DNA of 64,000 bases from contig NZ_AUHA01000002.1 of the NCBI RefSeq assembly GCF_000422945.1, forward strand, positions 186,001 through 250,000, written 5' to 3'. Below the pieces are notes generated by a model. The model saw only the letters and a list, made by a program, of their open reading frames with translations, was not told the DNA's origin and ran no database searches. The position numbers were made by a program, and so were the translations under genes. Source of the DNA: Daejeonella oryzae DSM 19973 (GTDB lineage Bacteria; Bacteroidota; Bacteroidia; Sphingobacteriales; Sphingobacteriaceae). This document shows positions 38,311 to 39,485 of the stretch, in pieces. Each line of letters starts with the position of its first letter. Position 1 is the stretch's first letter.

Positions 38311-38922
38311 TTAAGCGGCAACTCTCTGTAAAATAACCTTACAGGGGATATCTGAAGTAATTCTTACAAAATGATTTTTATGTAATGGAATTTCTAAATA
38401 GCAGCCGGCGTGCAAACTATGTTCGGCATTTTCAATAGTAATAATACACGATCCTTCCAGGATAAGAAACCGCTCAAATTCATTATCATGAGTTTCTTGC
38501 GGGGCCATCTCTTTTATCCAGACAAGGGCACAGATCATATCGGAAGTATAGCTGATTATCTTCGCATAAATATCCGTCAAATCCACCGGTGCAACCATAT
38601 CACTGCGGTTAATCCATTGATCATAATCAGCTATTTTGGAATTTTCGTGCAAAACCGGAGGAGATTCCGGGATTTCTCCGATCGCCAATCGGTCTTTATA
38701 ATCAATTGTGGCCATTAAAAATGGCTTTATTATCGGATCTGGCTCAATGGCATTTTGCAAGGCATATTCTTCCAAAACCTGTTCGATGGCATTTAATTCC
38801 TCCCGGATTTCTTCATGAGCTTCAGCCATTTGCTCAACCTGTTCAATTTCATGAGGACTTGCCATTCCCATTAAATACGATTCCAGTAATCCGGATTGAA
38901 TCAATTCATTAATATTCCTCAT
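38311..38922 (-). CDS. Soluble anti-sigma factor with C-terminal cupin domain
   Basis: A 203-aa protein with two parts. Residues 1-70 (LIQSGLLESYLMGMASPHEIEQVE...HEEIREELNAIEQVLEEYA) match the N-terminal domain of Bacteroidota anti-sigma factors. Residues about 110-203 form a cupin with a possible metal site (His145, Glu148/Glu150, His184). There is no membrane helix and no HxxxCxxC zinc motif. The layout recalls ChrR, the cupin-bearing anti-sigma of proteobacteria. It overlaps the sigma gene by four bases, so the two are translationally coupled. Confidence 0.75.
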   Translation of the reverse strand: MRNINELIQSGLLESYLMGMASPHEIEQVEQMAEAHEEIREELNAIEQVLEEYALQNAIEPDPIIKPFLMATIDYKDRLAIGEIPESPPVLHENSKIADYDQWINRSDMVAPVDLTDIYAKIISYTSDMICALVWIKEMAPQETHDNEFERFLILEGSCIITIENAEHSLHAGCYLEIPLHKNHFVRITSDIPCKVILQRVAA

Positions 38923-39485
38923 GCTAAAGCAGTTCCTTGTAATTTTTTAATTGCTGAAACCAAATCTGACCTTAAAATACTTACAGGAATATTGAGGTGT
39001 GCAGCGGCATCTGCAAATGTAAAGTCTTTAAAATAAATAAGGTCTAAAGCCTCCGCATATTTTTTCTCAATTCCAGATGTAAATCCTCTTCCTTCTCTAC
39101 GTTGCTTTTCAAAAAGATACTCTTTTACATTGCATGCATAAACCAGGTTGATGCTTTCTTTAATTTCATTACATTTTGATTTACCCTCAACCTTTAATTT
39201 GGAACACGTAAGTCTGGCAATTTTAACAAGCCAGGTAAAAATTCTTTCCTTTTCAGGATTATATTGTTTCCTGTTTTGCCATACGGTACCAAAAGATTTC
39301 TGCAGAATAGTTTCAGCCTCATGTTTATCGTTAATAATTCGTGAAATAGCACCTAATAAGGAAGGAGCATACGTATCATACAATTTTACAAAAGCTGTTT
39401 TACTGCCATTTTGGAATAAGATAATTAGGTCATTACCAAAAACAATATTGTCAGATTTAGGAAATCCAGTAGGCTTGTTAAACAT
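38919..39485 (-). CDS. ECF-type RNA polymerase sigma factor
   Basis: A 188-aa extracytoplasmic-function sigma factor. Region 2 is TAFVKLYDTYAPSLLGAISRIINDKHEAETILQKSFGTVWQN with the RIFTWLVKIAR helix, and region 4 is YAEALDLIYFKDFTFADAAAHLNIPVSILRSDLVSAIKKLQ, a helix-turn-helix. It is shorter and more divergent in region 4 than housekeeping factors. The cupin anti-sigma gene overlaps its end, so it is probably kept inactive until that domain senses its signal. Confidence 0.88.
   Translation of the reverse strand: MFNKPTGFPKSDNIVFGNDLIILFQNGSKTAFVKLYDTYAPSLLGAISRIINDKHEAETILQKSFGTVWQNRKQYNPEKERIFTWLVKIARLTCSKLKVEGKSKCNEIKESINLVYACNVKEYLFEKQRREGRGFTSGIEKKYAEALDLIYFKDFTFADAAAHLNIPVSILRSDLVSAIKKLQGTALA

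Follow-up and report, generated by a model that had tools for sequence, protein, structure and literature searches.

Two adjoining genes in a 64,000-nucleotide stretch of the genome of Daejeonella oryzae DSM 19973 (hereafter the window) have the layout of an ECF sigma factor gene followed by the gene of its anti-sigma factor, and a preliminary description, made from the sequence alone, read them as such, with a cupin as the sensor. This raises the question of whether the pair works as a stress switch, in which a signal would release a functioning sigma factor. The pair is real and conserved, and that description under-described it: given that promoter-reading residues have been lost and that relatives often retain the cupin gene without the sigma-like one, it is unlikely to be a stress switch of the ordinary kind.

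A sigma-like gene and a soluble ASD-cupin gene

The genes, and the domains of the second protein, lie as follows:

38919-39485, minus strand: degenerate ECF-sigma-like gene, 188 aa (ORF; Sigma70_r2, 34.6 bits; 0/11 DNA-contact columns)
38311-38922, minus strand: soluble, anti-sigma-like ASD-cupin gene, 203 aa (ORF; Cupin_2, 36.1 bits; AF2 model)
38919-38922, minus strand: ATGA stop/start overlap of the two genes (sequence)
38752-38922, minus strand: N-terminal helical ASD, aa 1-57, RskA-type, without zinc motif (44% identity to the transmembrane anti-sigma of the same genome; HxxxCxxC in 0/78 relatives)
38314-38571, minus strand: C-terminal cupin barrel, aa 118-203 (Pfam, AF2 model, structure search)

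The extent and pairing first given for the locus (38311-39485) were correct, and the ATGA overlap suggests that translation of the two genes may be coupled. A GNAT acetyltransferase gene (37840-38298, minus strand) begins 12 nt after the cupin gene ends and is possibly co-transcribed; it is absent from the recurrent neighbours of the cupin relatives, for which 365 neighbour ORFs were clustered.

The search for similar fusions that had been proposed yielded 78 unique full-length ASD-cupin proteins, window included, and residue conservation was counted in this set. In the window protein, Pfam places Cupin_2 at aa 138-197 (36.1 bits, cut-off 27.2), and the AF2 model, built from 12 sequences (mean pLDDT 89.4), has helices up to residue 57, a further helix at 66-80 and cupin strands over 118-202. 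The N-terminus is of the Bacteroidota anti-sigma type, as had been supposed, with 44% identity over aa 3-70 (E 2.2e-10) to the transmembrane anti-sigma of the same genome; we call it RskA-type, a label of our own that derives from the architecture and from the SigK match of that anti-sigma's sigma factor. The membrane helix of RskA-type proteins is missing, again as first described: over 19-residue spans, the Kyte-Doolittle mean peaks at 1.33 in the window protein and does not exceed 1.57 in the 78 proteins, versus 2.09-2.68 in five membrane anti-sigmas. The ASD core is kept (G11 in 78/78, L13 in 77/78, E14 in 73/78 and Y16 in 71/78), and since it persists in nearly all relatives, the ASD probably still binds something; we lean towards the sigma-like protein encoded beside it.

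The conserved residues of the cupin, with their frequencies among the 78 proteins, are:

38494-38496, minus strand: E143, putative metal ligand at the first-His position of other cupins (77/78; YxaG alignment)
38488-38490, minus strand: H145, putative metal ligand (78/78)
38473-38475, minus strand: E150, putative metal ligand (78/78)
38446-38448, minus strand: C159, nearly invariant Cys (77/78)
38371-38373, minus strand: H184, putative metal ligand (78/78)
38326-38328, minus strand: Q199, invariant, last strand (78/78)

In an alignment with quercetinase YxaG, the metal positions fall on E143, H145, E150 and H184, with E143 opposite His62 of YxaG, which we take to be a metal ligand. A metal-type pocket had been proposed from H145, E148/E150 and H184; on sequence, this pocket is borne out by a putative quartet that is invariant or nearly so, in which H145, E150 and H184 stand, E148 is ruled out as a ligand (kept in 25/78 only) and the overlooked E143 is added. 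Judging from these residues, the cupin very likely binds a metal. Cupin_2 metal proteins such as YxaG are alike in barrel and metal-type residues, but have the pattern H-x-H-x4-E...H where the ASD-cupin protein has E-x-H-x4-E...H, and the latter additionally possesses the ASD, the invariant Q199 and the near-invariant C159.

The comparison with ChrR of Rhodobacter sphaeroides, also made at the outset, stands with respect to layout. As in ChrR/RpoE (ECF11), a soluble ASD followed by a cupin is encoded beside an ECF-type sigma gene, with both domains predicted in one soluble protein by the AF2 model. With this model as query, generic cupins top the Foldseek matches and ChrR (2q1z_B) ranks 31st (E 1.8e-7, 19% identity), being the sole match, among those listed, that is aligned over both domains (196 columns); it lies outside the best 50 VIA-align matches, a list that a single domain can fill. 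The ligands of ChrR are described as H6, H31, C35 and C38 in the ASD and H141, H143, E147 and H177 in the cupin, and its singlet-oxygen response requires the cupin (PMC6852236). In contrast, the window ASD has no Cys at all, and the HxxxCxxC zinc motif, whose absence had been noticed, occurs in 0/78 full-length proteins. Its cupin matches Cupin_2 and not PF12973 (no match at E≤1 in the protein, and none in the genome), and meets the ChrR ligand set H,H,E,H in three of four types, with Glu (E143) replacing the first His in 77/78. The sigma partner of the family, unlike RpoE, is degenerate or absent. Membership in ChrR fails, while the ASD-cupin architecture stands.

A photo-oxidative role had been considered as well, with carotenoid genes to be looked for. 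The window encodes a CrtI-family (phytoene desaturase-like) protein at 10847-12307 (minus strand; 340.6 bits, over the family cut-off), and a second, stronger CrtI-family gene lies elsewhere in the genome (G000:C1:1428298-1429740), which fits a pigmented organism. No tie to the pair emerged: the window gene is ~26 kb away, nothing connects either gene with the pair, no result bears on singlet oxygen or on methylglyoxal, and we set the singlet-oxygen/carotenoid link aside.

Promoter-contact residues of the sigma-like protein

The 188-aa protein scores above the Pfam cut-off for Sigma70_r2 (34.6 bits versus 24) and below it for Sigma70_r4_2 (20.5 bits versus 25.7); the model of the protein shows the helices, at a mean pLDDT of 71.8. 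Its closest PDB sequence match is R. sphaeroides SigE (2q1z_A, E 5.7e-8), and it shares 31% identity with a canonical sigma of the same genome. PhyR was rejected as a standout structural match, since ordinary ECF sigmas rank above it. Two segments are degenerate:

39171-39212, minus strand: degenerate region 2.4, aa 92-105 (contact columns and segment conservation)
38937-38990, minus strand: degenerate region 4.2 recognition helix, aa 166-183 (contact columns)

Our reference was a profile of 27 sigmas encoded beside membrane anti-sigmas (here termed canonical), on which held-out canonical sigmas score 213-274 bits. With contact columns taken as those kept by at least 80% of these 27 sigmas in combination with general sigma anatomy, and not from a structure, the window sigma keeps 0/11 promoter-contact columns (regions 2.3-2.4 and 4.2) and its four closest homologues keep 0-1 of 11. 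The contact columns are kept in 22-26 of the 27 canonical sigmas, which themselves defined the consensus on which they are scored. Group A, the five full-length sigma-like ORFs found beside cupin genes (window included), retains 0/6 columns of regions 2.3-2.4 and 0-1/5 of region 4.2, alongside 13-18/26 columns of regions 2.1-2.3. None of the five has the consensus residue at N88, N92 (presumably Asn80 of E. coli sigma-E), I95, D96, R99 and S100, nor at G171, K174, T175, R176 and R178, and one has it at T172; all five keep Y36, Y39, G45, A57, F65, W69, K79, R81, T84 and W85.

As a control, we scored the PF04542-found sigma ORFs of two genomes (G000 and G301; 30 loci, 27 scorable, one being the window sigma). 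With the window sigma removed, the 26 ECF sigmas keep 1-6 of 6 columns in regions 2.3-2.4 and 0-5 of 5 in region 4.2, averaging ~3.1 and ~2.5, or about half (3.00 and 2.37 before the removal); all of them retain at least one column in region 2, and two retain none in region 4.2. In regions 2.1-2.3 their counts range over 7-25 of 26 columns, with 22 sigmas at 7-14 and four being of canonical type. Ordinary ECF sigmas are mostly more divergent overall, yet keep about half of the promoter-contact columns.

Segment conservation in group A (10 pairs) is 0.55 for regions 2.1-2.3, 0.37 for 2.3-2.4, 0.46 for the linker, 0.50 for 4.1 and 0.47 for 4.2. In the same order, the canonical sigmas (276 pairs of 30-60% identity, with L090 left out) give 0.51, 0.66, 0.19, 0.45 and 0.57, and other ECF sigmas (22 pairs of 30-60% identity) give 0.44, 0.51, 0.19, 0.50 and 0.53. 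Conservation is thus inverted in group A, with a variable region 2.4 and a conserved linker, the reverse of real sigmas. The name "ECF sigma factor" fails if a functional sigma is meant, as the promoter-contact residues are gone; the release of a functioning sigma by a signal, as initially envisaged, is not supported in view of this loss and of the variable region 2.4. We consider it likely that the 188-aa protein does not read promoters.

All five group A members have Arg at the K174 column and Lys at the N88 column, so that a new promoter specificity stays compatible with the data. The whole-model scores of group A (84-108 bits) are not below those of other ECF groups (44-92 bits). Nor is this decay unique to cupin pairs: at L090 (1722-2312, minus strand), a sigma encoded beside a membrane anti-sigma has degenerate regions 2.4 and 4.2 as well.

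Distribution, loss and retention of the pair

A search with a 40-row alignment (A1) across 400 genomes of the order returned 75 cupin-type rows in 68 genomes, five of which miss part of the N-terminus. A further A1 match besides the cupin type occurs in 67 of these 68 genomes, and the further matches listed with a frame of ~270-300 aa are membrane-type anti-sigmas; the exception is G052, where a membrane-type pair adjoins the cupin. In a phylum sample of 395 genomes, full-length cupin rows occur in 4, one of them (G540) outside the window's family. The named ASD-cupin relatives belong to the Sphingobacteriaceae and Chitinophagaceae.

No cupin gene is directly preceded by a canonical sigma (0/78). 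At 21 loci a same-strand sigma-like ORF (31-108 bits) lies just upstream, comprising group A and sixteen shorter ORFs of 139-181 aa from stop to stop (group B), and seven cupin genes are followed by a region-2-only ORF (group C). The labels on the 78 cupin proteins are A for 6, B for 16, C for 7 and none detected for 49, although many loci covered only 1.5 kb on each side, so that distant sigma partners could be missed. The A label falls on six proteins because one locus carries two cupins (L039, 5986-7304, Pedobacter sp. L105), a tandem duplication behind one sigma-like gene. The group C fragments (L057, L058, L066, L102, L104, L107 and L109) are 87-112 aa long and on the same strand, with gaps of 9-410 nt to the cupin gene (six gaps); the Q62 and D59 columns, which we take to be core-contact positions, are kept in none of the seven.

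Clustering of the neighbour ORFs revealed no family-wide partner besides the sigma-like genes and reflected mainly clade-specific synteny, and a conserved neighbour was rejected as a clue to the ligand (VOC gene at 10 loci, amidohydrolase at 6). One loose cluster of signalling proteins spans 12 loci.

The absence of the sigma-like gene is a loss that is visible at syntenic loci. In 18 genomes searched, the group-A sigma occurs in 5 (E 7e-34 or better), exactly those where it adjoins the cupin, and in 0/13 genomes whose cupin has no such neighbour; there, other ECF sigmas give the best matches (E 3e-23 or weaker). The cupin of G323 and of G277 lacks the sigma within a block shared with sigma-bearing Pedobacter-type loci (amidohydrolase downstream), and in a block marked by a VOC gene, this gene lies 0.7-0.85 kb upstream at five loci with a short sigma and ~0.2-0.26 kb away at five orphan loci. 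On the tree, the orphan label requires 14 changes, at least 10 of which are forced by well-supported branches.

The genes that remain are not plain pseudogenes, as close sigma-like pairs have dN/dS values of 0.06-0.24 where defined (canonical sigmas, 0.04-0.12), dS being saturated or undefined in many pairs; with the same reservation about dS, we rejected a simple pseudogene. The sigma is more conserved than the anti-sigma in 11/11 canonical pairs, whereas the cupin protein is more conserved than the sigma in 11/18 cupin pairs, a tendency only, as the pairs are non-independent. In G236, G257 and G191 (L129-L131) most of the ASD is eroded and the cupin residues are intact, and the median dN ratio of ASD to cupin is 1.91 in 11 orphan pairs versus 1.21 in 9 paired ones. 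At one partial locus (L128, 2232-2920, G379), ASD and cupin lie in different frames, which reflects either a sequencing error or a frameshift.

At 3/78 loci the cupin has a canonical sigma within 3 kb: in G052 (L141) the order is sigma-RskA-cupin, all on one strand, in G119 (L142) sigma-RskA follows ~1.8 kb behind the cupin, and at L038 the sigma is convergent and just downstream of the cupin. This is no more than suggestive of a partner in trans, and we regard action of the ASD-cupin protein on a canonical sigma as possible, if doubtful. The canonical SigK/RskA-type pair of the window genome is related to the window pair in ASD (44% over aa 3-70) and sigma (31%), but has the membrane helix and intact sigma that the window pair lacks. 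At L142 (3150-4701), two genes that look ferritin-like by eye from their translations lie between the cupin and sigma-RskA.

Possible roles of the pair

Our best explanation, put forward tentatively and with a little less than even confidence, is that this is a former sigma/anti-sigma pair in which the sigma has become a non-transcribing partner or mimic and the metal-cupin protein has been retained, perhaps acting in trans. The 203-aa protein, whose RskA-type ASD is followed by a metal cupin in place of the membrane helix, would be cytosolic and the retained functional part. The 188-aa protein would keep the fold of sigma2/sigma4, with a linker that has newly become conserved, and, its -10/-35 recognition residues being lost, would most likely be a partner of the ASD (a sigma mimic) rather than a transcription factor. 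By binding a metal and a small ligand or oxidant, the cupin would presumably alter the grip of the protein on its partner or partners, a possible second one being, in trans, a genuine ECF sigma whose membrane anti-sigma has the same ASD type.

This explanation draws on the loss of promoter residues (0/6 and at most 1/5) while the 2.1-2.3 columns stay, on the inverted segment conservation, and on the neighbourhoods (0/78 cupins directly after a canonical sigma, 49 without a detected sigma-like neighbour). The confinement of the group-A sigma to the 5/18 genomes where it adjoins a cupin, its syntenic absence at G277, G323 and the VOC-gene block, the dN/dS of 0.06-0.24, the eroded ASD beside a kept cupin in G236, G257 and G191, and the canonical sigma within 3 kb at 3/78 loci, once as sigma-RskA-cupin, point the same way. 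Counted against it are the fixed Arg and Lys, compatible with a shifted promoter, the undiminished whole-model scores, the decay of L090 and the size of group A, which is only five sequences.

A precedent is PhyR, whose sigma-like domain keeps the ECF structure, is degenerate in its promoter- and core-binding regions, and titrates the anti-sigma NepR (PMC8103513). As in the alphaproteobacterial PhyR/NepR/EcfG system, a sigma-fold protein degenerate in promoter binding occurs alongside an anti-sigma; in contrast, the window pair has no kinase and no receiver domain (188 aa, no such Pfam match), so the sensor would be the anti-sigma-like protein, and mimicry by the sigma-like protein is only putative. 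In layout the pair is similar to ChrR, and in its degenerate sigma domain to PhyR; it may work like either. Should the sigma-like partner prove to be a mimic, this type of mimicry has also arisen outside PhyR.

A working ECF sigma whose promoter specificity has changed, and which a soluble cupin anti-sigma holds until a signal in the cytosol frees it, would follow ChrR-like logic, as the preliminary description had it, with singlet oxygen as one possible signal. The translational overlap, the retained sigma2 fold and ECF-like model, the match to 2q1z_A, the Arg in region 4.2 of all five group A members, the purifying selection in related pairs and the crtI homologues are consistent with it; the 0/11 promoter-contact residues, the variability of region 2.4 among homologues, the absence of the sigma in many relatives and the genome's lack of a PF12973 match make it unlikely.

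Alternatively, the pair could be a regulatory relic, with a cupin that functions independently of any sigma, as a metal enzyme or binding protein, while the sigma-like gene and the ASD disappear. We also judge this improbable: the 49/78 cupins without a sigma-like neighbour, the three eroded ASDs with intact cupin motifs and the raised ASD/cupin dN ratio of orphans (1.91 versus 1.21) would fit, but the ASD core residues (71-78 of 78), the purifying selection on the sigma-like proteins and the new conserved linker of group A argue for retention. As a relic, the family would show, stage by stage, a regulatory pair dissolving and its sensor left behind.

A further reading, which we consider rather unlikely, is a Bacteroidota partner switch that relies on sigma mimicry but has no response regulator, the degenerate, non-transcribing sigma and the cytosolic metal-cupin protein jointly tuning a canonical ECF sigma; if true, one canonical ECF sigma with a membrane anti-sigma would listen to both envelope and cytosol. 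A two-part sigma like B. subtilis SigO-RsoA (PMC8103513), in which another subunit supplies region 4 to a region-2-type protein, might be seen in the 87-112-aa proteins downstream of seven cupin genes, but is very improbable, as the window protein has both regions and none of the seven fragments retains the Q62 and D59 columns.

A survey of class I anti-sigmas found such a protein adjoining only 6% of Bacteroidetes ECF sigmas, and suggests broken synteny or other modes of regulation in this group (PMC7406223). Among the soluble anti-sigmas that a review of non-canonical ECF sigmas lists by ECF group, there is no zinc-free Bacteroidota cupin in the passages covered (PMC8999054), and the passages returned by our literature search, outside whose scope the ECF reclassification lay, describe no cupin anti-sigma in Bacteroidota. 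The ASD-cupin family adds a concrete example, a set of anti-sigma-like proteins that are orphan and soluble and have a ligand pocket. In G540, an ECF sigma adjoins an 80-aa ORF that matches the ASD only (G540:C2:14202-14953), possibly a soluble ASD-only protein.
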